Source: Oscillospiraceae bacterium (lineage in GTDB: Bacteria > Bacillota > Clostridia > Oscillospirales > Oscillospiraceae). From it: a DNA stretch of 64,000 bases. Shown here one piece after another: positions 465 through 63,756 of this stretch. Location: positions 1 to 64,000 of the forward strand of contig JAGAMN010000059.1 in assembly GCA_017624715.1 (NCBI GenBank), read 5' to 3'. The translations under genes and the position numbers were made by a program. Position 1 is the stretch's first letter; every line of letters starts with the position of its first letter. A model generated the notes under the pieces. The model had not been told where the DNA came from. It saw only the letters and a program-made list of their open reading frames with translations, and ran no database searches.

Positions 465-540
465 TCCCCCTTAGCTCAGTCGGTAGAGCGACGGACTGTT
501 AATCCGCAGGTCGTTGGTTCAAGTCCAACAGGGGGAGCCA
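465..540 (+). tRNA. tRNA-Asn (anticodon GTT)
   Basis: This 76-base cloverleaf has acceptor stem tccccct/aggggga, an encoded CCA end at 538-540, D-arm motif tagctcagtcggtagagc, anticodon loop ctgttaa (GTT, asparagine) and T-arm gttggttcaagtccaac. It lies 8 bases after the 5S gene. Its 3' end plus the following bases (520-550) is duplicated exactly at 1490-1520, which marks this tRNA as a possible insertion target. Confidence 0.96.
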
Positions 541-580
541 GAAAAAGAAAAGACACGCGAGAGCGTGTCTTTTCTTTTTC
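541..580 (+). terminator. Perfect 18-bp hairpin, rRNA/tRNA operon terminator and lead stem of structured element 1
   Basis: An 18-bp perfect stem (541-558 with 563-580) has a gaga loop and its 3' arm is T-rich. It starts right after the tRNA CCA end, so it should terminate the rRNA-tRNA transcript. It is also the first stem of a larger repeated element: equivalent lead hairpins of different sequence precede the other copies at 1511-1550 and, on the minus strand, 51607-51640. Confidence 0.8.
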
Positions 581-750
581 AACTAAGTGTGCCTTACGGC
601 ACGTGAAGCACACCTTCGGTGTGTGAAGTTTGCTTCGCAAGTGAAATGCGCTGCGGCGCGTGAGTGGCACACTTAACTTCACTTTGTGCGAAAGCACAAA
701 ACTTCACTACGCCAACGGCATAACTTCACATCGGCTTTGCCGATGCTTCG
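581..750. repeat. Structured multi-hairpin element, copy 1
   Basis: This tract is a chain of short hairpins with tetraloop-like loops (ttac, ttcg, ctgc, gaaa, ttt). In the left half the hairpins are separated by gtgaa(gtt); in the right half by the complementary aacttcac. An outer stem aagtgtgcc (585-593) pairs with ggcacactt (666-674), but the same left arm can instead pair locally with ggcac at 598-602, giving two alternative folds. Copies 2 (1551-1722) and 3 (51433-51606, minus) have the same plan with different, compensating sequences. There is no ORF here. Function is unknown: it could act as RNA or as folded single-stranded DNA. Confidence 0.7.
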
Positions 751-759
751 CTCAAACCC

Positions 760-788
760 TTGCACCTCCACCGCTTTTATGCTATAAT
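760..788 (+). promoter_or_regulatory. Sigma-A promoter, extended -10, for the 809 ORF
   Basis: The -35 box TTGCAC (760-765) and -10 box TATAAT (783-788) are 17 bases apart, and TGC precedes the -10. The same layout is seen at 1729-1757 before the second small ORF. A ribosome binding site AAGGCGGTG follows at 795-803. Confidence 0.8.
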
Positions 789-808
789 ACACCTAAGGCG
801 GTGATTCT

Positions 809-1306
809 ATGAATTTTGAAATCACAAATGAATTGATTGATACAATAAAACCATATACGGAAAATGTAACAGTAACAATTTCTACCGACAATAAAGATTG
901 GAAAGGTAGAGATTACAAATCGGATTTTGTAACTATTGATGAGAAAAATAATGTAGGATTTGAGGTTTTTGATAATGAGATAATTGTGTTTTATTTTACT
1001 GATCATTATCATTTTGAAGATTATTCATCTGAATTAGAAGATGGTGAAGATGATTACATAAAAAGAGCAAAGGATTTTATAGTTGAGTTATTGGAAAATA
1101 AAATCAAATATATACAAGGGTATAAGGGCAAAAAACTTGCGACCGAAAAATATTATATTGTCTATTCAGACAATTCAGAAGAACGCATTGGTGGTACTTG
1201 GTGGGGATTAGAAAGATTTCTTAATCCTTTTATCAAAAAGGCTGAAAAAACAACCATTTACAAATTTAATAAACTAAGTGGCTGTTTTGAGAAAAATAGC
1301 GTATAA
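809..1306 (+). CDS. Hypothetical protein, 165 aa, cassette ORF 1
   Basis: I do not recognise this protein. It is 165 residues, acidic, without signal peptide or membrane segment. The middle is rich in Asp/Glu and aromatic residues (around 55-85), followed by an amphipathic helix-like stretch (about 85-110) and a C-terminal patch GGTWWGLERF (about residues 128-137) that looks like a folded core. The start is ATG with AAGGCGGTG six bases upstream and a near-consensus promoter. The gene is clearly more AT-rich than its neighbours, stands alone between two structured elements, and ends before its own terminator at 1361-1390. This context suggests recent transfer as a single-gene cassette. A small immunity or antitoxin-like role is possible, but that is only a guess from size and context. 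Confidence 0.75.
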   Translation: MNFEITNELIDTIKPYTENVTVTISTDNKDWKGRDYKSDFVTIDEKNNVGFEVFDNEIIVFYFTDHYHFEDYSSELEDGEDDYIKRAKDFIVELLENKIKYIQGYKGKKLATEKYYIVYSDNSEERIGGTWWGLERFLNPFIKKAEKTTIYKFNKLSGCFEKNSV

Positions 1307-1360
1307 ATAAAGAAAATCCTCGGTTTTCACTCAGTTCTTTTTTGGACACGAATGACAATA

Positions 1361-1391
1361 AAAACACCACCCAAATGGGTGGTGTTTTTAT
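1361..1391 (+). terminator. Intrinsic terminator with the CACCACCCA stem
   Basis: The hairpin pairs acaccaccca with tgggtggtgt and is followed by ttttt. It ends the transcript of the 809 ORF. The terminator of the second cassette ORF at 2311-2346 uses the same stem sequence, although the two ORFs are unrelated. Confidence 0.85.
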
Positions 1392-1413
1392 TGGCAATTT
1401 TGATCCCAATTCT

Positions 1414-1501
1414 CTGTTGGACTTGAAAGGCGGCTCTTAGCAACAGTCCGGTGGACTGTTGCAACCGCCGTGGCTTTTCCGCAGAAAAGCAAGTCCAACA
1501 G
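1414..1501. repeat. Composite hairpin with GAAAGGCGGCTCTT / CCGCAGAAAAGC core
   Basis: An outer perfect 12-bp stem pairs ctgttggacttg (1414-1425) with caagtccaacag (1490-1501). Inside lie the motifs gaaaggcggctctt (1425-1438) and ccgcagaaaagc (1479-1490), and a separate perfect 9-bp hairpin (1441-1449 with 1453-1461). The same two internal motifs, within a different but equally perfect outer stem, occur at 51335-51378. The right arm of the outer stem is the start of the duplicated tRNA-Asn 3' end. Confidence 0.7.
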
Positions 1502-1520
1502 GGGGAGCCAGAAAAAGAAA
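1490..1520 (+). repeat. 31-base duplicate of the tRNA-Asn 3' end and flank
   Basis: These 31 bases are identical to 520-550, covering the T-arm 3' side, acceptor arm, CCA and first bases of the downstream hairpin. No complete tRNA is present at the second site. Direct repeats of a tRNA 3' end are the usual footprint of site-specific insertion at a tRNA gene, so 520-550 and 1490-1520 may be attachment-site-like ends of a unit of about 970 bases. No integrase is in the window. Confidence 0.75.
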
Positions 1521-1722
1521 GACACGCTGAATAGCGTGTCTTTTCTTTTCAACTAAATCCGTCCCTTCGGACGGGATAAATCCATCTTCGATGGGTGAAA
1601 TCACTTCGTGATGAAATCCTGCTTCGCAGGGATCGTGGACGGATTTAATTTCATCTGAGGTGGTAGCCGAAGCTTTCACCCAAGCTTTGCGTGGATTTCA
1701 TCGTGCGTTAGCACGATTTCAT
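1511..1722. repeat. Structured multi-hairpin element, copy 2
   Basis: This copy has the same plan as copy 1. A lead hairpin with stem agacacgc/gcgtgtct spans 1511-1550, then aactaa, then an outer stem aaatccgtcc pairing with ggacggattt (ending near 1649). Internal TTCG-loop hairpins are separated by tgaaat on the left and by atttcat on the right. The spacer sequence differs from copy 1 (tgaagt/acttca), but it is again uniform within the copy and complementary between the halves. The last clear hairpin is cgtgcgttagcacg near 1702-1715. There is no ORF. The gap between the terminator at 1391 and the ORF at 1778 is filled by this and the preceding hairpin. Confidence 0.7.
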
Positions 1723-1728
1723 TTGACC

Positions 1729-1757
1729 TTGCGGTTTTTCCACTTTTATGCTATAAT
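1729..1757 (+). promoter_or_regulatory. Sigma-A promoter for the 1778 ORF
   Basis: TTGCGG (1729-1734) and TATAAT (1752-1757) are 17 bases apart with TGC before the -10. The 11 bases ttttatgctataat around the -10 and the AAGGCGGTG binding site are the same as in the first module. Confidence 0.78.
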
Positions 1758-1777
1758 AACCCCAAGGCGGTGGTGAT

Positions 1778-2284
1778 GTGCTTATAGTTAATAAAAACTT
1801 AAATGCTGAAGATATTCGCGGCAAAAAGTATCGCTCTCCTGATTTTAGTCTTTCGGCAATTTTTTCAATACCCTTTATTTTGTTGGCTATATTTGTATCC
1901 GCAAATATTCCACCAAGAGAAGGACAAGGAGTAATTATTGGACTAGTCTTAGTTGTACTATTAGCATTACCGGCTGCTTTGTTGTTAAGTTCTTTGAAAA
2001 CATCATATATAATATGCAAAGATAGAATCTACTTTTTTAATTCGCAAGTTATACGCTTGAAAAATGAAAAACGCAAGAAAGAAAGTCGTATAAGAACTAA
2101 CGGTAGTGTCGGCTACTCCGATATTAAAAATTTTCGATATTTAGGTATTGAATTTAGTAGTATGGGCGGTCCACTTAGAAAATATATTTCGCCTCCAAGA
2201 GTTGTAATAATTGGTGATGATTTCGAAGTGGAAGTTTGTGCATATAAGAGTTTAATAAATAGAATCAAAGCCTTGCAAAGATAG
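1778..2284 (+). CDS. Hypothetical two-TM protein with PH-like C-terminal part, cassette ORF 2
   Basis: This is a 168-residue predicted membrane protein. It has a short N-terminal segment, two hydrophobic helices (about residues 27-43 and 51-72), and a soluble C-terminal part of about 95 residues with alternating hydrophobic strands (for example SYIICKDRIYFF and RVVIIGDDFEVEV). This resembles the bacterial PH-like domain seen in many small membrane proteins; the resemblance is a reading, not a search result. The start is GTG at 1778, because AAGGCGGTGG lies just upstream and the overlapping ATG at 1776 meets a stop after three codons. Like the ORF at 809 it is AT-rich and sits alone between a structured element and a CACCACCCA terminator, as a cassette would. 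Confidence 0.72.
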   Translation: MLIVNKNLNAEDIRGKKYRSPDFSLSAIFSIPFILLAIFVSANIPPREGQGVIIGLVLVVLLALPAALLLSSLKTSYIICKDRIYFFNSQVIRLKNEKRKKESRIRTNGSVGYSDIKNFRYLGIEFSSMGGPLRKYISPPRVVIIGDDFEVEVCAYKSLINRIKALQR

Positions 2285-5867: not shown

Positions 5868-6020
5868 GCATCAAAAGCCTTCTCCTGGAGGAGAAGGTGG
5901 CAAAAGTCTTTGATTTTTGACGGATGTGGTGAGAAAATGCCTTGCTGCGCAAGGCATTTTGACTTACTGCGCAAACGGTCGGACTACCGTGCCTTTGTAC
6001 GCCGACGCCGACCGTTTGCT
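5868..6020. repeat. Degenerate inverted-repeat element and hairpins before the MBOAT gene
   Basis: The sequence gccttctcc..ggagaaggtggc near 5876-5901 and ctttgatttttgac after it match one end of the palindromic elements at 19896-20058 and 24298-24459, so this looks like a decayed half copy. It is followed by a perfect hairpin aaaatgccttg/caaggcatttt (5934-5960) and a 12-bp stem gcaaacggtcgg/ccgaccgtttgc (5971-5982 with 6008-6019). Apart from this, the 290-base gap 5782-6072 holds no gene. Confidence 0.6.
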
Positions 6021-19895: not shown

Positions 19896-20058
19896 CACCT
19901 CCCTTGTGTAAAGGGAGGTGGCTTGGCCGGAAGGCGAAGCCGGAGGGATTGTTAGACCAGATAGCAATCACGCACATAGTTCGTGGCTGGTTTTGCTCAA
20001 AACAATCCCCCAGTCAAAAATCAATGATTTTTGACAGCCCCATTTACACAAGGGGGCC
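19896..20058. repeat. MITE-like palindromic element
   Basis: This is a unit of about 163 bases with complementary ends: cctcccttgtgtaaagggag at the left, gccccatttacacaaggggg at the right. It has internal complementary arms ggagggattgtt and aacaatcccccagtc, and a middle hairpin around caatcacgcacatagttcgtg. It has no ORF. It is homologous to 24298-24459 and, in part, 5868-5930. Short non-coding elements with such ends are typical of mobile MITE-type repeats; the transposase source is not in the window. Confidence 0.75.
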
Positions 20059-20079
20059 TTGGTTTGTGCTTATTAGAAC

Positions 20080-24257: not shown

Positions 24258-24297
24258 ACACACAACCACCAGCTTAGTGCGCCGGTGGTAAGAGAAG

Positions 24298-24459
24298 GCC
24301 CCCTTGTGTAAAGGGGGCTGGATTTTTGCGAAGCAAAAAGACTGGGGGATTGTTTTGAGTAGAACCAATCACGAACTCTGTGCGTGATTGTGCTTTGCCC
24401 CAACAATCCCTCCGTCAAAAATCAAAGATTTTTGCCACCTCCCTTTACACAAGGGAGGC
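24298..24459. repeat. MITE-like palindromic element
   Basis: This second copy has ends ggcccccttgtgtaaagggg and ccctttacacaagggaggc, internal arms actgggggattgttttg and caacaatccctccgtc, and a central hairpin around caatcacgaactctgtgcgtgattg. It sits between two convergent genes and ends five bases before the stop codon of the aldo/keto reductase gene, where its right end can act as that gene's terminator (on the minus strand). Confidence 0.78.
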
Positions 24460-24463
24460 TTTT

Positions 24464-51194: not shown

Positions 51195-51334
51195 ATAAGC
51201 ATCTCCTCTGTTCAGTTTGCAGTCGACTGTAATAACAATATATCAGATATTTTGAAAAGGGAAAGGGAGCAAACGATTCCATTTTGTTCTTTCCGTAGGA
51301 TCATTTTGAGGAGTTGGGTTATCTTGCGAAAGAA

Positions 51335-51378
51335 GACGGATTCGCTTTTCTGCGGAAGAGCCGCCTTTCGAATCCGTC
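51335..51378 (-). repeat. Hairpin with GAAAGGCGGCTCTT / CCGCAGAAAAGC core, second copy
   Basis: Read on the minus strand, a perfect 10-bp stem gacggattcg/cgaatccgtc encloses gaaaggcggctcttccgcag and aaaagc. The two internal motifs are the same as in 1414-1501, while the outer stem differs in sequence but is again perfect. In the first copy a 20-base hairpin is inserted between the motifs. Confidence 0.7.
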
Positions 51379-51400
51379 CTCCAAATACCCAAACGCAAAC

Positions 51401-51432: not shown

Positions 51433-51640
51433 ACACATCCAGTGAAGCTTGGCCTCGCTAAGTGAAGTAGCGTCGTTGCCGCTGTGCAGTATCGTGCTAT
51501 GCACGATGTGAAGTAAAGTGCGCCACCCACTTGCAAAGCAAACTTCACTGCACAGCAGCTTCACGATGCGAAGCATCACTTCGCGCGCCGCAAGGCGCAC
51601 TTAGTTGAAAAGAGCACTTGCAAAAGCAAGTGCTCTTTTC
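51433..51640 (-). repeat. Structured multi-hairpin element, copy 3
   Basis: Read on the minus strand it begins with gccagaaaag, like copies 1 and 2, and a perfect 15-bp lead hairpin (51626-51640 with 51607-51621). The linker aactaa follows, then the outer stem aagtgcgcc (51594-51602 region) pairing with ggcgcactt (51516-51524). Internal hairpins are separated by gtgaag on the left and by acttcac on the right. The stems differ from copies 1 and 2 but keep pairing. With the flanking 51195-51432 and 51641-51798, this accounts for the 604-base gap between genes; no ORF there is convincing. Confidence 0.7.
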
Positions 51641-51798: not shown

Positions 51799-52650
51799 CT
51801 AACAAAGCATATCAAGAGTAATTATTTCTTTCCCATATTGAAAGGAAGCGGGAACAATAGCATCATCATCTAGACGAAGAATGGGGTTGTCATGATCGTA
51901 CATATATTCTGGATGCGAATTCTGATATATTAGGAGTCTATGGCAAACTTGGGAAATAAGAAATTGGCACTTGTGAGCATAGTCCATTTCCTCGTGACCA
52001 TCAAACACAATGGAATTGATTGGTAATAAGTAATTTAAGCAGAAATATGTACTATTCTCAAAGAAATCTTTTTGTATTTTTTTATTACGAAGAAAACGAG
52101 ATAGTACTACTAGAAATTCCGGACCGTCATACAACTCACGAGCATAAGAATTTTTCATTAGAAGATCCCTCATCGCAAAGCCGTTGAAACAATAATCTTC
52201 ACGACCAGCATTATATCCTAGTCGTCCACGAAGGTAACATACATCAATCTGATTGGTATCCTCTAATGAAACAACGCTTCCGTAATGAATAATGAGAAGA
52301 TGTCCTTTGTGTTCTGCAAACTCAACACCATGCTCTCGTAGGAATGTACGAAGAGGTGTTTCTGTTGCAAGAAGGAATTTTAGGTTACATCCATCGTTGT
52401 TCTCGCCGTCTGTATTTAATCTACGAGTCAAATGGTGCAATTGAATCTCATCTATAGGTATTTCAGGTTGCAGGTCAGAGATAATGGACATCAATTCGAC
52501 ATTGAATATTTCAGAATTGAAGCCCCATTTATCTGGTGTTGCTTTTTCTGATGCATAATCAATGTACTGGTACAGTTCACTGCTTGTTATGTTTAGGTAT
52601 GTACATAATGAGCGTTCCATAGATCGTTGTGAGGTTGTATCGATATACAT
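51799..52650 (-). CDS. Hypothetical protein, third gene of the defence-like operon, 283 aa
   Basis: I do not recognise this protein. It is 283 residues, cytoplasmic, without membrane segments. Notable blocks: EIQLHHLTRRLNTDG (about 69-83), KFLLATETPLRTFLREHGVEF (about 90-110), HLLIIHYGSVVSLED, VCYLRGRLGYNAGREDYCFN (about 137-156), GFAMRDLLMKNSYARELYDG and PEFLVVLSRFL. The paired His-x-x-x-Arg-Arg and RGRLGY..D..FNGF motifs look like an active site rather than a scaffold. Start ATG 52650 has GAGGTGA eight bases upstream. It follows the ATPase gene by 68 bases on the same strand, so it may be the effector or the third component of the system. AT-rich composition agrees with horizontal transfer. 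Confidence 0.7.
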   Translation of the reverse strand: MYIDTTSQRSMERSLCTYLNITSSELYQYIDYASEKATPDKWGFNSEIFNVELMSIISDLQPEIPIDEIQLHHLTRRLNTDGENNDGCNLKFLLATETPLRTFLREHGVEFAEHKGHLLIIHYGSVVSLEDTNQIDVCYLRGRLGYNAGREDYCFNGFAMRDLLMKNSYARELYDGPEFLVVLSRFLRNKKIQKDFFENSTYFCLNYLLPINSIVFDGHEEMDYAHKCQFLISQVCHRLLIYQNSHPEYMYDHDNPILRLDDDAIVPASFQYGKEIITLDMLC

Positions 52651-52717: not shown

Positions 52718-54397
52718 CTAGAAGCGAGTGAAGATTTCGGAGATCTCCGCTTCGTATGTGGCATATTCTGTTGAACTTAAAAGATGATTCTTGGGGTTTG
52801 AAAGCGAAATAATGTTAACATTCCCAAGCTCTGCTGCAGTTTCCTTGCCCTGAATGGATGCGACAATGACCTGGTTGTCTGTTTTATCCCATGTAAGCAA
52901 TGTACGAATAACAGAATCAAGATGCTCATTATCCTGTTCAAGTACATTTGGAGAATCGATTACGATGGGAAAGGTAATCAGGTTAGGCGCGCTTGCTCGC
53001 TGAGTTTCTACAAATGCCAGAATTTGTGCTATCTTACATCTAGGACCATAGGCACCACTGGCAATCAAAGCTGATCCGGGCTCGCTATAATCAGCTATTT
53101 GATCCGAAGGAATATCAAGACCAGTAAACAATGTTCCCAATTTGCCTAGATAGGTTGCATTGACAACGGCACGTCCCTTGTCATATGCAGCAAGTTGCTT
53201 GTTATAGCCGGAATTATCAGAACGGAGCCTCTCAATTTCGGCAATGTCAGCAGCAATTTGGTCACGATATTCCCGGAGCAACTGTTTTGTTGCCTTTGAT
53301 TTTAGATAGGCATTATAAGCTTCGCGGTCAGATTGGAGGCTATTCTCAAAATCTGCAAGGGTTTTTTGTTTTGCAGCAAATTTACTCCTATATTTGCTGA
53401 TTCGGCGCTCTAGTAACACTAATTTTTCGGAGAGATTGGTATAGTCATCGTGCAGAGATTCTAATAAATAGATTTTTTCCAGTTGCTGGGTCATCGCTTG
53501 AGCGAATACCATACCACAACGGGGACACTCAACGGTAGTATTATTAGAGGCTTCGGGAACAGGTGGTTTCTGCTTGATATATTTAGAAAGAACATCTTTT
53601 TCGTATTCAAGCTGTATTTTTTGATCCTCGGCCTCAAGTAAATCGGTGCGCACTTTTGCAATCTCGCTTAGAAGTCTTCTGATTTCAATTTGCCTGGAGG
53701 CAATCGCCTTTTCTAGCGATTCGCTGTCAAAAGACATTTGAGTTTCGCCCAGACCGGCCTGGAGTGTATCTACAACAGTACGGTATTTGTCGATTTCTTT
53801 CGTAAGCAGAGACATCTGTTTACTATTTGCTTTATGACGTTTTGCAATTTCAACATAGCTTCGGTCAAGTGCGCCGAGGTGGAAGAAATAGCTGTTCTTT
53901 CTTTGTCCCAGATCAAACTGCCCCATTCGATCAAAAGAATAGGAATTAGCGGCCCAGCCATTTTCCTGATCGACATAGTAAGGCATATAGTAGTATGCGG
54001 GAGGGCATCTTACAATAGTGCCATCTTCATCTTTACCGACAAGATTGATTTCTAGTTTAAAGAGCTCAGACAGCTTCTCTTCAAACGCTGCGGCAGAAGC
54101 ATAATAGCCGACAAAAGTGCTGTCACAATATAAAACATATGTATTTTTAAGACGAGCAACACGATAATGGTGGAGATCAAGAGAAAAATCAATAAATGTA
54201 AGCAGATTAATTCTCTTGATAGGTGTTGGAAAAAAGACTTCTGCACCGAGGGTGTAGAAAATTGACTTCATTATTACCGACTTGCCGAGGTGATTGTGAT
54301 CGCTAGTAAGCAAATTTTTGCCAGACTGGAAGTGAATCCGTTTAGCTTCTTTGTTAGTAAGGTCTACCAGTGTAATAGCGGATACAATTAACTTCAT
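52718..54397 (-). CDS. SMC/Rad50-like ATPase with CxxC hook, defence-type
   Basis: The product is 559 residues with an SMC-like plan. N-terminal ATP-binding half: FQSGKNLLTSDHNHLGKSVI (23-42) with GKS (38-40) of the P-loop, though the first Gly of GxxxxGK is replaced. Two coiled-coil arms (about 180-285 and 300-410) flank the hook CPRC (291-294). The C-terminal half has ASGAYGPRCKIAQILAF (446-462) in the place of the ABC signature and the Walker-B-like LITFPIVIDSPNV (473-485). A conserved-looking block YYVDQENGW..SYSFDRMGQFDLGQRK follows the P-loop. The start overlaps the stop of the DUF4297-like gene (ATGA), so they are coupled. This ATPase-plus-nuclease pair resembles ABC-three-component and Lamassu-type anti-phage systems. 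Confidence 0.8.
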   Translation of the reverse strand: MKLIVSAITLVDLTNKEAKRIHFQSGKNLLTSDHNHLGKSVIMKSIFYTLGAEVFFPTPIKRINLLTFIDFSLDLHHYRVARLKNTYVLYCDSTFVGYYASAAAFEEKLSELFKLEINLVGKDEDGTIVRCPPAYYYMPYYVDQENGWAANSYSFDRMGQFDLGQRKNSYFFHLGALDRSYVEIAKRHKANSKQMSLLTKEIDKYRTVVDTLQAGLGETQMSFDSESLEKAIASRQIEIRRLLSEIAKVRTDLLEAEDQKIQLEYEKDVLSKYIKQKPPVPEASNNTTVECPRCGMVFAQAMTQQLEKIYLLESLHDDYTNLSEKLVLLERRISKYRSKFAAKQKTLADFENSLQSDREAYNAYLKSKATKQLLREYRDQIAADIAEIERLRSDNSGYNKQLAAYDKGRAVVNATYLGKLGTLFTGLDIPSDQIADYSEPGSALIASGAYGPRCKIAQILAFVETQRASAPNLITFPIVIDSPNVLEQDNEHLDSVIRTLLTWDKTDNQVIVASIQGKETAAELGNVNIISLSNPKNHLLSSTEYATYEAEISEIFTRF

Positions 54398-55461
54398 ATG
54401 CTCCCACCTCCGTAACAATATTTGTATGCGAGTATCATAACTAGAGTCTTTAAGTAATACTCGTCTCGGTATGCTGTTGGGACAGAATCATCAAAGCAAG
54501 TACGGTCATAAACCATTGTCAATAAGGTTGGCATATCATCTACACCGTCGCTACAAGCACTTTCAATTGCACTAATCACTTTTTGTTTTAAGTCTATGAA
54601 TACTCGCATATCTGAGTACATATCGATTTTAATTTGTCGATACTGAGAAGAGCACCTTGTTTTCATCTTGAGCGAAGTGATACCAAATTCATCGAACAGC
54701 TTGTCAAGCGACGGGATTTGGATAGCAAGTCCACAAGATATTATGGCTTTTATATCATTTGAGGCCAAACCTTTCTTCTCAAATATTTCACCGATATCCG
54801 AACAAGTTTCATTGACCTCATCATTGAACTTGGTATCCAGTGTGCTATATAGAAGTCTATAGATTGATTTTGCAGTTGCAACTTGAAGGTCTGGGTCTTG
54901 TTTTAAGAGAAAATCCTGGAATTGGTGTTCGGTCTCTTCTTTGTGTCCCTTGGTTGAAAGCGTGGATCGCACAAAGAAAAATTTGGAAAGATCCACATCT
55001 TTAACATCAACCCCTTGGTCTTTGGCAATTGCTTTCCGAATTTTTTGAATATTGCTCTGAATGGCAGAATCATCTAACGAGGTTCTTTCATTAGGAAAAA
55101 CCTCGGTACCGTATGAAACTACATCCGTATTGCAGACCACGGACGCACTGCTTGTGTAGATTCCATATTTTTGGGCATTGACATAGAGCTTCTGAAACCA
55201 TTTCTCCGCTATAACTGTAGATAATAGATATTGTTTATCAGAGGATTTGGTTTTAACCTGGTATAGATGAATTGCAGAAGGGTTTTCAGGATCGCTAATT
55301 ATAGAAATGTCTTCGATGTAATCCATCATCACAAGGAAATCAGTCGTATAAAATTCCATGATAAGCTGGATGGCGTAGCTAATCTGAACAGTAAGCCTGT
55401 TTTTGGTTCTGGAGCCGGTAATCTCTTTGTGTGAACTAGAGATAATACTTCCTAGTGACAT
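54394..55461 (-). CDS. DUF4297/Cap4-like nuclease domain protein, defence-type
   Basis: The product is 355 residues. The first 100 residues match the DUF4297 (Cap4-type, PD-(D/E)xK) nuclease pattern: GSRTKNRLTVQ (16-26), Asp47 and Glu50-Asp51 in VMMDYIEDISII, and YQVKTKS (67-73) with the catalytic Lys70. The rest (about 100-355) is helical and probably senses or binds the partner. I place the start at 55461 (MSLGSIISS), seven bases after GAAGG; an upstream ATG at 55479 has no binding site. It is the first gene of the three-gene operon, behind the promoter at 55506-55534. In Cap4 and Lamassu, this nuclease degrades DNA when infection is sensed; that role is inferred here. Confidence 0.78.
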   Translation of the reverse strand: MSLGSIISSSHKEITGSRTKNRLTVQISYAIQLIMEFYTTDFLVMMDYIEDISIISDPENPSAIHLYQVKTKSSDKQYLLSTVIAEKWFQKLYVNAQKYGIYTSSASVVCNTDVVSYGTEVFPNERTSLDDSAIQSNIQKIRKAIAKDQGVDVKDVDLSKFFFVRSTLSTKGHKEETEHQFQDFLLKQDPDLQVATAKSIYRLLYSTLDTKFNDEVNETCSDIGEIFEKKGLASNDIKAIISCGLAIQIPSLDKLFDEFGITSLKMKTRCSSQYRQIKIDMYSDMRVFIDLKQKVISAIESACSDGVDDMPTLLTMVYDRTCFDDSVPTAYRDEYYLKTLVMILAYKYCYGGGSI

Positions 55462-55505
55462 GCAAAAACCTTCTCTCATAATGCAATATCGATTTGTATA
55501 AATGC

Positions 55506-55744: not shown

Positions 55745-57313
55745 GAACTGAAAGTAACCTAAGTTAGATAACTAAGAGAGGTCTATATGATGGTGAGATG
55801 TTTAGAAATCATCAAGCGGCACATAAATGTATATTTTAGTAGGATGCTATTTATCATCGCATTGAGAAATCGATTAGTTTATAAAGTGTCTGCCAATTTG
55901 CTGGGAGTATATTTGGCTGTGACTTGCGTAGTTCCGATATAATTGTCTGGGCATTTGCCCTAAGAATTATAGGAGGTATATTATGCAACAAAAGAACACC
56001 GATATCCAAATGAAGGACCAGCTGCTTCAGCGGAAGCTCAATGGTGAAAGTGTAGCATCAATCGCAGTGGATACAGGCATTCCGAGAAGTACAGTATATT
56101 CCTGGATTGCGGCAGCTCGGGAAGCAAGGGAGGAAGAGGCTCGGAAGAAAGGGGAGATAATAGCGTCAGACCCGCGAACCTATTTCAAGCAAAAAGAACA
56201 TATCGATAAGTTGGAGGGGATGCTTGAAGTTCTCAAGGCGGTATTTGATGTGACAGAAATGCCCCTGGACAAGAGACTTAAGGTACTTGAGGAATTCTAT
56301 CATCAGGGCAAATATAGCGTGCGGCTTATGTGTGAAGCACTGGAGGTTCCGCGGGGAACATTTTACAACTACATAAACCGGGGATTGAAGGGTAATACGC
56401 AAGCAGCAAAACGGCGCGAGGTGATGAAAGCCAAAATTCGGGACATCTATTATGACAGCAACCAGATATATGGAGCTGCGAAGATTCATGCAATTCTGAA
56501 AGATCAAGGCGAAGCAGTTACGGTTGCGTACGTTCGAGAACTTATGCGGGAGATGGATTTGCAGAGCATTCGGATAGGATCTAAAAAGCGTCATTACGAT
56601 GAGACACGAAAATGCCAAAACATAGTAAAGAGAAACTTCGCAGCAGAACGACCAAATCAAATTTGGGTGAGTGATGTAACTTACTATCGCTTTGATGAGA
56701 TGCAATACTTTATTTGCGTCATCATGGATCTGTACGCCAGACGGGTGATCGCTTACAAGGTGGGGTACAGCAACAATACGCACCTGGTTAAAGAAACTTT
56801 CAGAATGGCATATGAATTCCGGAAACCGGAGCCTGGTCTGATTTTCCATACAGATCAGGGGGGTAATTACCGGTCGAGAGCATTTGGTGATTATTTGAAA
56901 GCACGAGCGGTAACGCAGTCGTTCTCCAAACCTGGTGTACCGTACGATAATTCTGTGATGGAGACTTTCTTCGCTTCAATGAAACGAGAAGAACTGTATA
57001 GATACAAATACCGCTCCGAACGTGAGTTCAGAGCGGCGGTAGATAGATATATTGATTTCTATAATAAACAGAGACCTCATAAGACGCTACATTACAAAAC
57101 ACCTCAGGCGAAAGAAGAATCTTATGAGAAAGCACGTAAGGCAGAAAGTGATGAGTGAAGCATATAATGTCCCCCAATTAATGTGCAGATCTGGTGTAAA
57201 ACTGGTTCCTATCTGCAAGCCTAAGTTTGAAAAAGCTCACTTATACACCCCAAAAGCGAAGTTTACGAAAAAGATAAAAAGTGTAAAATTTCAAACAATT
57301 TAGGTGAAGTCTG
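55745..57313 (+). mobile_element. IS3-family insertion sequence (ends approximate)
   Basis: A complete IS3-type transposase gene lies in a unit of about 1.57 kb. The left sequence ggacagaactgaaagtaacctaag (from about 55741; the first 20 bases are the clearest) and the complement of the right sequence tttaggtgaagtctggacag (57300-57318) are alike only in part, so the inverted repeats and the exact ends are uncertain. No target duplication could be fixed. It separates the defence-like operon from the tRNA-Tyr/tRNA-Thr genes. Confidence 0.6.
55983..57158 (+). CDS. IS3-family transposase, single fused ORF
   Basis: The product is 391 residues and joins both usual IS3 parts in one frame. N-terminal helix-turn-helix (about 10-45, LNGESVASIAVDTGIPRSTV) and a coiled-coil (about 60-110) correspond to OrfA; an HTH-like region with YGAAKIHAIL follows, then the DDE integrase core: WVSDVTYYRF (first Asp about 229), IFHTDQGGNYRS (second Asp about 290) and NSVMETFFASMKREE (Glu about 325). 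The end KTLHYKTPQAKEE is typical. All three catalytic residues are present and there is no frameshift, so it may be active. Start ATG 55983 has GGAGGT six bases upstream. Confidence 0.92.
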   Translation: MQQKNTDIQMKDQLLQRKLNGESVASIAVDTGIPRSTVYSWIAAAREAREEEARKKGEIIASDPRTYFKQKEHIDKLEGMLEVLKAVFDVTEMPLDKRLKVLEEFYHQGKYSVRLMCEALEVPRGTFYNYINRGLKGNTQAAKRREVMKAKIRDIYYDSNQIYGAAKIHAILKDQGEAVTVAYVRELMREMDLQSIRIGSKKRHYDETRKCQNIVKRNFAAERPNQIWVSDVTYYRFDEMQYFICVIMDLYARRVIAYKVGYSNNTHLVKETFRMAYEFRKPEPGLIFHTDQGGNYRSRAFGDYLKARAVTQSFSKPGVPYDNSVMETFFASMKREELYRYKYRSEREFRAAVDRYIDFYNKQRPHKTLHYKTPQAKEESYEKARKAESDE

Positions 57314-57561: not shown

Positions 57562-57646
57562 TGGTGGGGGAGGACGGATTCGAACCATCGAAGCGATACG
57601 CAGCAGATTTACAGTCTGTCCCCTTTGGCCACTCGGGAACTCCCCC
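57562..57646 (-). tRNA. tRNA-Tyr (anticodon GTA)
   Basis: This 85-base class II tRNA has acceptor stem gggggag/ctccccc, a long variable arm, anticodon loop ctgtaaa (GTA) and an encoded CCA. It is the second gene of a tRNA pair on the minus strand. Confidence 0.95.
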
Positions 57647-60693: not shown

Positions 60694-63483
60694 TTAGATT
60701 TCGATATCCAGCTTGGAAACAACAGCAGCGCAGCGGGGGCACAGACCTTCGGCGTTTGCCTGTTCGGAGTGCATCCAGCAGCGGGGGCACTTCTCGCCTC
60801 TGGCCTCGGAAACGCCCACGGTCAGCTCGGGGAAGTTTACACCGGCAGCAACCTCAGCGCCCTCGGGAGCGGTTTCCCAAGCGCAGGTGGAAACAATGCA
60901 GATTTCTGCCAGGTTCAGACCCTCGCAAGCAGCCTTCAGCTCGTCGCTGCCCACTAGGCTCACGTGAGCCTCCAGAGCCTTGCCGATCCGCTTGTCGGCA
61001 CGGGCTTTTTCCAGAACACCGTTGACATCCTGACGCAGCTTCATGACGGTAGCCAACTTTTCCATGGTGGCATCGTCCAGACTGTAGGCGGTGAAGTCCG
61101 CAGGCATCTGGTTCAGCAGCACATTCCGGGCGTCATCGGATGCCAGATGGGGCATAGCCTGCCAAATTTCATCGCAGGTGAAAGCCAGAATGGGAGCAAA
61201 CAGCTTTGCCATAGCATCCAGAATCAGATACAGAGCCGTCTGGGCGCTGCGGCGGCGCAGGCCGGTGGCTTCCTCACAGTACAGGCGGTCCTTCAGAATG
61301 TCCAGGTAGAAGCTACTGAGCTCAACCACGCAGAAGTCGTTGATATCGTGGGTGATCACATGGAATTCATAGCCTTCGTAAGCCTTACGGACATCGGCCA
61401 CCAGTTGATTCAGCTTGGTCAGAGCCCACTTGTCCAGCTCTTCCATGGCTTCCGCAGGAACCATATCCTTGTTGGGATCAAAGTCTGCCAGGTTACCCAG
61501 ACAGTACCGGGCGGTGTTGCGGAACTTCAGGTAGTTCTGAGCGATCTGCTTGAAGATCTCCTTGGAGCAGCGCACATCTGCATGATAGTCAGAAGAAGCA
61601 GCCCACAGACGGACGATGTCTGCGCCAAAGTCCTTAATGAGGTCAGCGGGGTCAACACCGTTGCCCAAGCTCTTGTGCATGGCACGGCCCTGGCCGTCCA
61701 CCACCCAGCCGTGGGTCAGAACCTGCTTGAAGGGTGCACCTTGATCCAGCGCACCAACGGAGGTCAGCAGACTGGACTGGAACCAACCGCGGTACTGGTC
61801 AGCGCCTTCCAGGTATACATCTGCAGGCCACAGCTCGGGGGTGCGGTGCATCAGAGATGCGAAATGGGTAGAGCCGGAGTCAAACCAGCAGTCCAGAGTA
61901 TCGGTTTCCTTGTCGAAAGCCTTGCCGCCGCAGTGGGGGCAGGTAAAGTTCTCGGGGACCAGCTCCATGGCGTCCTTTTCAAACCAGATGTTAGAGCCGT
62001 GCTCGTCAAACAGAGCGGAGATCTTGGCAATGGAATCAGGGGTAGAAACAGGCTTGCCGCAGTCCTTGCAGTAAAACACGGGGATGGGCAGACCCCAGCG
62101 GCGCTGACGGCTGATACACCAGTCGGCACGCTCGCGGATCATGCTGATCATACGATCTTCGCCCCAGGCAGGGAACCACTTCACGTCCTCGATGGCCTTG
62201 ACAGCCTGATCCTTGAAGGATTCGACGGAGCAGAACCACTGGGGAGTTGCCCGGAAGATAATGGGCTTCTTGCAGCGGTCGTGGTGGGGGTAGGAGTGGA
62301 TGATCTCCTCGGAAGCGAACAGCATGCCGCTTTCCTTCATATCGGCCAGAATGATGGGGTTACTCTCCTCGGTCTTCAGACCCTCATACTTGCCGGCGTA
62401 GTCGGTGTGGCGGCCGTAGTCGTCCACGGGAACAACCAGGTCCATGCCGTAACGCATGCAGGTCTGATAGTCGTCGGCACCGAAGCCGGGAGCGGTGTGA
62501 ACACAGCCGGTACCGGAATCCATGGTGACATACTCGGCGTTGACCAGGCGGCTGGTCTTGTCCAGGAAGGGATGCTGTGCCAGCATATTTTCAAAGAACT
62601 GACCGGGATAGGTGGCCAGGATTTCATAGTTCTCGAAGCCGCCCATCTTCATGGTCTTTTCCATCAGGGCCTCGGCCATGATGTAGGTTTCACCGTTTTC
62701 AGCCTTGACCAGCACATAGCTGTCCCGGGGATGCAGGCAGATGCCCATGTTGCCGGGCAGAGTCCAGATGGTGGTAGTCCAAATGACGAAGAAGGTCTTG
62801 CTCAGGTCAAACTGGCTCAGTTTGCCCAGATCGTCCTTCATGGGGAACTTGACGTAAACAGAGGTGCAGGGATCATCCTTGTACTCGATGTCGGCTTCGG
62901 CAACGGCGGTTGCGCAGAAGGGACACCAGGTAACGGGCTTCAGGCCCTTGTAGATAAAACCCTTGTCGAACATCCGGCCAAAGACCTTGACCTCCTGGGC
63001 TTCAAAATGCTTATCCATGGTGCGGTAGGGATGCTCCCAATCGCCCACAACGCCCAGTCGCTTAAAGCCGCCCATCTGCTTCTGGATAAAGTCCTCGGCA
63101 AATTCCGTGCATGCGGTACGGAATTCCGGCACGGACATATCCTTGTTCAGCTTCTTCTTGGAAGTTTCGATAGCCCGCTCAATGGGCAGACCGTGGTTGT
63201 CCCAGCCGGGGACATAGGGGGTGTAGTAGCCCATCATGGCGTGGCTGCGGATGATGAAGTCCTTCAGGGTCTTGTTCAGAGCGTGACCCATGTGGATGTA
63301 GCCATTGGAGAAGGGAGGGCCGTCATGCAGAACGAAGGGGGGCAGATCCTTGTTCTTTTCCAGCATGGCATTGTAAAGATCCAGCTCCTGCCATTTTTCC
63401 AGCATACCCGGTTCCCGGGCAGGCAGACCGGCTTTCATGGGGAAGTCAGTTTTCGGGGTGATGATCGTGTTCTTGTATTCCAT
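60694..63483 (-). CDS. ileS: Isoleucine--tRNA ligase
   Basis: IleRS charges tRNA-Ile. The product is 929 residues. Class I signatures: HIGH motif in PPFSNGYIHMGHALNK (about 56-71) and KMSKS equivalent MHKSLGNG (about 605-612). The editing domain lies between about 190 and 400, with GTGCVHTAPGFGADDY typical. The C-terminal zinc finger CPRCW..CPRC (about 897-919) marks the bacterial type, which is usually mupirocin-sensitive. The start ATG 63483 has GGAGG eight bases upstream; the frame is open further upstream through the T-box and is not protein there. Expression is controlled by the T-box at 63510-63720. The upstream partial gene looks like divIVA, the usual neighbour. Confidence 0.97.
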   Translation of the reverse strand: MEYKNTIITPKTDFPMKAGLPAREPGMLEKWQELDLYNAMLEKNKDLPPFVLHDGPPFSNGYIHMGHALNKTLKDFIIRSHAMMGYYTPYVPGWDNHGLPIERAIETSKKKLNKDMSVPEFRTACTEFAEDFIQKQMGGFKRLGVVGDWEHPYRTMDKHFEAQEVKVFGRMFDKGFIYKGLKPVTWCPFCATAVAEADIEYKDDPCTSVYVKFPMKDDLGKLSQFDLSKTFFVIWTTTIWTLPGNMGICLHPRDSYVLVKAENGETYIMAEALMEKTMKMGGFENYEILATYPGQFFENMLAQHPFLDKTSRLVNAEYVTMDSGTGCVHTAPGFGADDYQTCMRYGMDLVVPVDDYGRHTDYAGKYEGLKTEESNPIILADMKESGMLFASEEIIHSYPHHDRCKKPIIFRATPQWFCSVESFKDQAVKAIEDVKWFPAWGEDRMISMIRERADWCISRQRRWGLPIPVFYCKDCGKPVSTPDSIAKISALFDEHGSNIWFEKDAMELVPENFTCPHCGGKAFDKETDTLDCWFDSGSTHFASLMHRTPELWPADVYLEGADQYRGWFQSSLLTSVGALDQGAPFKQVLTHGWVVDGQGRAMHKSLGNGVDPADLIKDFGADIVRLWAASSDYHADVRCSKEIFKQIAQNYLKFRNTARYCLGNLADFDPNKDMVPAEAMEELDKWALTKLNQLVADVRKAYEGYEFHVITHDINDFCVVELSSFYLDILKDRLYCEEATGLRRRSAQTALYLILDAMAKLFAPILAFTCDEIWQAMPHLASDDARNVLLNQMPADFTAYSLDDATMEKLATVMKLRQDVNGVLEKARADKRIGKALEAHVSLVGSDELKAACEGLNLAEICIVSTCAWETAPEGAEVAAGVNFPELTVGVSEARGEKCPRCWMHSEQANAEGLCPRCAAVVSKLDIEI

Positions 63484-63509
63484 TGGAATAACCTCCATAG
63501 TAATATACA

Positions 63510-63720
63510 AAATAAAAGCGCCTTTGTCCCTAATGCAAGAGACAAAGGCGCATAACCTCTGCGGTACCACTCTTGTTCCGCCCTTTGGGCGGCACTCGAA
63601 ATGCTGTAACGGGCAAACCCGGCGCAGCCTACTGACTTTTCGGTGCGCAGCTCGGAGGGGATACCACAATCCGCTGTTTACTGCCTTGCAGCAACCGGCA
63701 GCTCTCTGAAAACAAAAGGT
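63510..63720 (-). promoter_or_regulatory. T-box riboswitch, isoleucine-specific
   Basis: On the minus strand the T-box sequence AAGAGTGGTACCGCAGAGG (63562-63580 region) precedes a terminator with stem gcgcctttgtc/gacaaaggcgc and tttt. The upstream part has Stem I features and a candidate specifier ATC in GTGGTATCCCC near 63658-63664. Uncharged tRNA-Ile would bind and prevent termination. A stem-loop ccgccc..gggcgg (near 63580-63595) lies between. Confidence 0.92.
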
Positions 63721-63756
63721 GGAATGTGACGTGTCCTCGTCATAGCAAAGGGATAT

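Follow-up and report, generated by a model that had tools for sequence, protein, structure and literature searches.

Hairpin chains with a Gut-1 left half and small cassettes behind tRNA and tmRNA genes in gut Clostridia

Cassettes and hairpin chains in the window

The window, meaning the whole stretch of DNA that we analysed, is 64,000 nucleotides of an Oscillospiraceae genome (GCA_017624715.1, contig JAGAMN010000059.1, positions 1 to 64,000). Near its start, a tRNA-Asn gene is followed by two cassettes, each made of a tRNA 3' end, a terminator, a hairpin chain, a promoter and an ORF in that order.

465..540, +, tRNA-Asn (gtt), anchor of the array (ARAGORN, Rfam)
541..579, +, terminator behind tRNA-Asn, the lead hairpin of copy 1; perfect hairpin with flanking A and T runs
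580..750, +, copy 1 of the hairpin chain, with Gut-1 as its left half at 580-652 (Rfam, own model, fold)
758..803, +, block with promoter-like sequence and RBS in cassette 1; 46-nt repeat, 78% like 1727-1772
809..1306, +, ORF for 165 aa, the cargo of cassette 1; matches no known domain
1353..1396, +, terminator behind cargo 1 (inverted repeat I17)
1415..1500, +, folded palindrome; its outer stem is the tRNA-Asn T-arm
1490..1510, +, exact repeat of the 21 nt that end tRNA-Asn (C56 to CCA); cassette 2 starts here
1511..1549, +, terminator ahead of copy 2 (from sequence)
1550..1722, +, hairpin chain copy 2; left half 1550-1622 is Gut-1 (Rfam, own model, fold)
1727..1772, +, promoter-like and RBS block of cassette 2; repeat of the cassette 1 block (D12)
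1778..2284, +, ORF for 168 aa, the cargo of cassette 2; matches no known domain

A preliminary description of this DNA had placed three copies of a multi-hairpin element at 541-750, 1511-1722 and 51433-51640 (minus strand). The copies stand there and all of the stem sequences that it cited are found in the DNA; it overlooked that a tRNA anchors them, that they belong to cassettes and that palindromes with T-arms are present. Two of the parts that it assigned to the element are present but belong to something else. The shared gcca start is a tRNA 3' end and lies outside the chain: in copy 1 it ends tRNA-Asn itself (465-540), in copy 2 it lies within a 31-nt exact repeat of the tRNA-Asn 3' end and the terminator start (520-550 = 1490-1520), and in copy 3 it is merely a degenerate ggttcaaaaacgcca. 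The lead hairpin is perfect as described, but the T's after it make it a terminator, a part separate from the chain (541..579 is 76% like 1513-1549).

The chain thus begins just past the terminator and stops ahead of the cargo promoter, where the block at 758..803 has TATAAT and AAGGCGGTG, both read by eye. The palindrome at 1415-1500 consists of an inverted T-arm (TGTTGGACTTG), a GC stem with an inner hairpin, a small hairpin and the T-arm (CAAGTCCAACA). We found no integrase gene within cassettes 1 and 2, which hold only ORFs without domains. A common tail, CAGTTCTTTTTCGGACACGAATGAC, stands behind cargo genes at 1310-1352 of the window and at three other loci (L119, L121 and L165), and in L121 and L165 it passes directly into a terminator and chain.

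Copy 3 lies far downstream on the minus strand, in a stretch with a tRNA-Tyr gene.

57562..57646, -, tRNA-Tyr (gta), putative anchor of the Lamassu stretch; 51332-51382 has its T-arm again
55983-57158, +, transposase gene with rve and HTH domains, in the tRNA-Tyr stretch
54394..55479, -, LmuA of a Lamassu defence operon (PADLOC 1.6e-32; Pfam Cap4 nuclease)
52718..54418, -, LmuB of the Lamassu defence operon (PADLOC 4e-109)
51799..52650, -, 283-aa ORF behind LmuB, no database match
51608..51640, -, terminator with gcca remnant ahead of copy 3 (from sequence)
51433..51607, -, hairpin chain copy 3; left half 51537-51607 is Gut-1-like, below cut-off (fold)
51332..51382, -, short palindrome with the tRNA-Tyr T-arm (inverted arm 14/14, direct arm 12/13)

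LmuA and LmuB are adjacent and their ends overlap, the arrangement of a Lamassu operon, and the 283-aa ORF is possibly a further subunit. Copy 3 sits between these genes and the T-arm palindrome, so that its chain comes after its cargo, whereas copies 1 and 2 precede theirs. We read the stretch from tRNA-Tyr to the palindrome, about 6.2 kb in length, as one unit anchored at tRNA-Tyr that has Lamassu cargo and the rve transposase gene, which by our reading is of IS3 type; no PF00589 match was found in this stretch.

Two further features of the window are of other kinds. Another inverted-repeat family occupies 19898-20060, 24295-24461 and 5895-5924, with CCCTTTACACAAGGGGG hairpins and arms that are up to 100% complementary. 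An ordinary T-box leader at 63536-63752 (minus strand) stands ahead of a class I tRNA synthetase gene at 60694-63669 (minus strand).

Structure of the hairpin chain

All three window copies fold far better than chance. Against 200 dinucleotide shuffles each, the z-scores were -8.33, -6.54 and -6.48 for copies 1 to 3, and none of the 200 shuffles matched the fold energy of any copy. The preliminary description knew of no named function for the element, but its left half is Rfam Gut-1 (RF01706): copies 1 and 2 score 52.6 and 57.5 bits against a gathering cut-off of 50 bits, and copy 3 falls below it at 46.9 bits. With our own covariance model the copies score 69.4, 74 and 60.2 bits. The window's genome has eight Gut-1 matches, four of them above cut-off, and some of the eight are right halves read on the opposite strand. 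The chain's left half has the same first hairpins and spacers as Gut-1; the Rfam model covers 77 positions, while the element here extends over about 170-235 nt, has its right half inverted and is anchored behind tRNA genes.

We built the covariance model from 31 copies; it replaced a strand rule by exact arm matches that had oriented 55 of 115 elements. It gave 182 matches, from which we kept 141 at 38 bits or more, leaving out 40 with lower scores and one truncated match (L143:1-48, 39.3 bits). Two of the 141 lie too close to a contig end, leaving 139 evaluable for an anchor, and 13 are short of the full 235 nt, leaving 128 for loop, spacer and stem counts. The preliminary description had suggested such a search of related genomes, and had said that finding these copies only, free of compensatory change, would refute its reading; the search found many more copies, with covariation.

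A full element runs as CAA, three or four spacer and hairpin units, a closing arm that is able to pair with the arm of the first hairpin, and about three hairpin and inverted-spacer units, which makes the chain a near-palindrome built of direct and inverted units. Full elements average 6.8 hairpins, and block shuffles of them 2.9. The outer stem of the preliminary description is not what the minimum-energy folds show, since in all three window copies these join a portion of the left half to the right half, but the stem is retained across the family: in 123 of 128 elements the first arm can pair without mismatch with a distal partner of at least 6 nt. The same letters can form a local alternative hairpin in 91 of the 128, so the two competing folds proposed for the window copies are a feature of the family.

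The spacers are chiefly TGAAAT, TGATAT or TGAAGT. They had been called uniform within a copy, which is nearly but not fully so: copy 1 has tgaag plus one tgaaat, and among the 116 scorable elements spacers are mixed on the left side in 7 and on the right side in 19. The correspondence between left and right halves holds up well, with spacer types agreeing in 110 of the 116 and disagreeing in 6 (12 of the 128 could not be scored).

For covariation we aligned 120 matches, giving 118 distinct rows, in which standard pairs fill 89.7% of the pair cells. The covariation score was 0.661 against 0.240 in shuffles, was reached by none of 500 shuffles and was at most 0.099 with slid partners; the alignment was fitted to the model's own structure, which flatters this score, and the sequences are related. 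Two coarser measures were not in excess of shuffles: pairs changed on both sides (14, reached by 52 of 500) and pair types (47, reached by 135 of 500). Selection for the fold of the chain rather than its sequence, as first proposed from the window copies, is on these alignments well supported.

The mismatches within stems tell us about the strand. On the tRNA-sense strand there are 59 G.T against 26 A.C (p 0.0004), and terminator hairpins have 28 G.T against 6 A.C on the same strand. The bias is one-sided, which indicates that one strand is folded, and it fits RNA as well as single-stranded DNA. Left-half loops are TNC or TNNC in 274 of 366 cases and right-half loops GNA or GNNA in 79 of 192, the latter often GNNA yet not GNRA (e.g. 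GTCA, GTTA). GNA and GNNA loops are stable in DNA. From the loop types we had considered that the two halves form hairpins on opposite strands; the one-sided G.T bias weakens this idea.

Could the chain simply be an RNA? Gut-1 would then work as the structured non-coding RNA that Rfam classes it as. Its transcription would either continue through the tRNA terminator or begin at a promoter of the chain, and its vicinity to tRNA genes would be an insertion preference. The Rfam match, the strong covariation of the stems and the preference for G.T over A.C (59:26, like the 28:6 of terminator hairpins) all fit. However, the chain starts past a terminator and ends ahead of the cargo promoter, its direct and inverted units make it nearly palindromic, and its right-half loops are often GNNA and not GNRA, a type that prefers DNA. 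We consider this explanation rather unlikely, even though Weinberg et al. 2010 rank Gut-1 as a certain structured RNA that is probably not cis-regulatory, with the taxon given as 'human gut only' (PMC2864571). The element here occurs in animal-gut genomes of many genera.

tRNA anchors, palindromes and cargo across relatives

An intact tRNA or tmRNA gene stands 30-45 nt ahead of the chain at 69 of the 139 evaluable matches, with 17 kinds among the 69. At 15 more, a duplicated 3' fragment of an upstream tRNA is directly ahead of the chain, and 14 have a tRNA-like remnant with CCA. The remaining 41 are without a recognisable tRNA (11 have CCA-GAAA alone and 30 have nothing tRNA-like). On the opposite side, at the same distance, we found a tRNA at a single element of the 139. 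The pattern that we used to collect most loci holds the terminator T-run and no tRNA part, and in an Rfam-derived set that is independent of this pattern (32 of 37 loci counted) the anchor is present in 18 of 32.

Gut-1 matches occur in 30 of 60 relatives, above cut-off in 27, with up to 48 matches per genome. A 21-base pattern hit at least 119 loci in GTDB contigs; among the matches listed, most are MAGs of gut Clostridia or Oscillospiraceae and some are chance matches (e.g. Listeria). Judged by these relatives, the window's organism is probably a gut dweller of this group too. A phage origin found no support, as none of the nine viral contigs that match the pattern has a chain. A sequence search with the stretch behind copy 2 gave distant gene matches only.

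The cargo is diverse. The 83 first downstream ORFs, some of which are chance frames, fall into 69 clusters, the largest being 14 four-helix-bundle proteins. This commonest cargo sits behind various anchors (L046, L047, L048, L056, L057, L081, L115, L116, L126, L137, L156, L186 and others), sometimes followed by an acetyltransferase-like or deaminase-like gene, names that we gave by eye. ORF 1 of the window (809..1306) has 172 homologues; among 394 genomes of the order we found it in 6, each from a different genus. Outside the window we looked at five loci with a homologue, and at one of the three whose upstream side is readable it stands behind a tRNA-Ser 3' fragment and terminator, without a chain. 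Two loci with homologues have neither tRNA fragment nor terminator in the stretch covered, one of which begins 120 nt upstream.

One tRNA-Gly locus could be compared in six genomes (G009, G029, G004, G002, G000 and contig L117). The upstream DNA and the tRNA are common to all six, with the tRNA block of G000 inverted relative to those genes, while chains and cargo differ. Most asnS loci are without the tRNA-Gly. G029 has a 258-nt chain insert where G009 is continuous, between flanks that are 86% and 88% identical; this insert is a terminator and chain, and follows a stop codon rather than a tRNA fragment. Directly behind 5S-tRNA-Asn, none of six relatives from the window's genus (G002, G004, G008, G010, G018, G019) has a chain. 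G004, G008 and G019 have palindrome-like stretches there instead (by eye), followed in G008 by chain-like inverted units, and G039, from another family, has a terminator and chain at this place. The genome differences that we compared are species-level, and among them we saw no excised circle or strain-level excision.

These comparisons raise the possibility that the terminator-chain block is itself a mobile repeat, MITE-like or REP/BOX-like, that lands behind tRNA terminators, with the T-arm palindromes being independent of it. The 30 of 139 chains without a tRNA, the palindromes without a chain and the G029 insert with its terminator and chain behind a stop codon would all be expected, and direct and inverted spacer-hairpin units resemble REP/BIME. 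REP/BIME and BOX elements likewise have many copies and a modular build of direct and inverted motif-hairpin units. Unlike them, the chain has its place behind tRNA terminators, one spacer type common within a copy and no Y1 transposase partner: Y1 transposases (PF01797) are absent from G000 and from the chain-rich genomes G002, G039, G047 and G059. We dropped a RAYT/REP partner since Y1 transposases do not follow the chains. Landing at terminators alone does not predict the 15 chains directly after duplicated tRNA fragments either, and we regard the mobile-repeat explanation as clearly improbable.

The tRNA genes themselves are repeated in part. We found 29 partial repeats of tRNA 3' ends across 173 loci, all downstream of the gene (behind 22 of 138 tRNA genes) and none upstream, a contrast that is partly by design because loci were picked for a chain on the downstream side. 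A more specific test is that for palindromes with the resident tRNA's own T-arm: of 132 tRNA genes, 9 have one behind them and none has one upstream, while arms taken from other tRNAs give an expectation of 0.1. The window's tRNA-Tyr and tRNA-Thr share one palindrome site, so eight of the nine are independent. A scan for palindromes that ignores tRNA identity gave excess noise.

We folded 13 palindrome sites with DNA parameters, and 10 gave z-scores from -5.1 to -7.5, with weaker folds at L087 (-3.1), L133 (-2.6) and L119 (-2.2); the scores are inflated because the outer stem was chosen for complementarity. Most of the 13 have an outer T-arm stem, a stem with an inner hairpin, and a 3' hairpin. 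Folded palindromes end cassettes in the same orientation at 1415-1500 of the window, L048, L107, L118 and others. Behind a tmRNA, L048 has two cassettes with near-identical end sites and four-helix-bundle and deaminase-like genes (by eye), and L107 has three tandem elements behind tRNA-Val. Palindromes and tRNA fragments without a chain occur at L044, L133, L186 and L343.

Two further observations concern these ends. At L133 (minus strand), three tandem 3' fragments stand behind tRNA-Leu, two of them without the usual chain terminator directly after. A recurrent tail, GTGAGAGTTCGAATTCATAC or close variants of it, often followed by AATATCTTTTT, is found near chains or cargo at L011, L091, L172, L192 and L341, and is perhaps a degenerate end site.

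Duplications from the T-loop to the 3' end typically mark the action of tyrosine integrases on tRNA genes, and the loci might be remnants of many unrelated tRNA-integrating islands, each with its own integrase, that share terminators and repeats. One genome, G000, does have 22 PF00589 matches. However, G059 has 48 Gut-1 matches and a single PF00589 match, the repeat-to-tRNA distances of about 0.1 to 2 kb are in most units too short for an integrase, and the same architecture of terminator, chain and palindrome recurs at 17 tRNA and tmRNA kinds in many genera. Separate islands thus seem very unlikely to us. Islands that target tRNA genes, tycheposons included, share with our units the tRNA 3' end as target, its duplication at the junction (here at 22 of 138 tRNA genes) and defence cargo. 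They differ in that most units here have no room for an integrase and that ours have a folded palindrome with a T-arm inverted repeat and a hairpin chain.

We tried co-occurrence with chains for three families: the integron integrase, the Y1 transposase and the recombinase family of G059. The integron integrase (TIGR02249) is above cut-off in none of the 60 relatives. The single PF00589 match of G059 was a candidate for a dedicated tyrosine recombinase, but its family is present in 17 of 60 relatives and unrelated to chain number.

Proposed movement of the cassettes

Our best explanation, in which our confidence is evenly balanced, is that the chain mostly leads small cassettes behind tRNA and tmRNA genes and that these cassettes likely insert by site-specific recombination. 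It builds on the observed layout, repeats, tRNA association and covariation. Several observations speak against it: of the 139 chains, 30 have nothing tRNA-like ahead of them and 11 have CCA-GAAA alone, palindromes and tRNA fragments also occur without a chain, copy 3 comes after its cargo, the G029 insert does not start at a tRNA fragment, a tRNA fragment precedes the ORF 1 homologue at one of three readable loci, and none of the three enzyme families that we tried proved to be a partner of the chains. A typical cassette begins with the tRNA 3' end, from C56 of the T-loop to CCA, which leaves the tRNA gene whole. After it come a terminator, the chain and a promoter with RBS, then the cargo of one or two genes and a second terminator. 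The palindrome at the end has the T-arm in inverted form, a GC stem that contains an inner hairpin, a small hairpin and the direct T-arm, and the next cassette starts inside it.

Insertion would be a strand exchange between the folded T-arm palindrome and the T-loop of the anchoring tRNA. We infer this from the duplications, whose 5' edges coincide in the T-loop, and from a topology that resembles that of integron attC sites. T-loop duplications and a palindrome whose 3' arm opens the next cassette make up the topology of integron cassettes, with the tRNA in the role of attI; the recombinase would probably act in trans. The chain itself may act as one folded strand, in tRNA sense, in the movement or set-up of cassettes. 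This is the weakest step of the proposal; we prefer it to a free regulator because the chain stands between the terminator and the promoter of the cargo, is built as a palindrome and has matching spacers.

Integron cassettes, too, are single small genes in one orientation with diverse cargo, and end in an imperfect palindrome whose 3' arm opens the next cassette. The attC R-box is GTTRRRY, whereas the palindrome arms here have the T-arm sequence of the resident tRNA. The platform is a tRNA or tmRNA gene and not an integron, no IntI is above cut-off in the 60 relatives, and the cassettes often have their own promoter, terminator and hairpin chain. We suggest tentatively, and think it somewhat unlikely, that gut Clostridia have a class of gene-capture system of their own, with a tRNA/tmRNA platform, single-strand attC-like T-arm palindromes, the Gut-1 chain as recombination module and a trans recombinase, by which diverse small genes and defence systems would enter arrays anchored at tRNA genes. 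The literature that we searched holds neither tRNA-anchored cassette arrays nor the genomic setting of Gut-1; the additional files of the 2010 paper, preprints and most subscription papers were outside this search.

Gut-1 has been an orphan structured motif since 2010, and its placement at the head of cassettes provides both a genomic context and a mechanism that can be tested. A hairpin repeat that is found in half of the 60 relatives, at up to 48 matches per genome, is thereby accounted for as well. If the cassettes do move, gut Clostridia would be able to exchange small genes and anti-phage systems in an integron-like way, and this would escape surveys that are based on IntI or attC.
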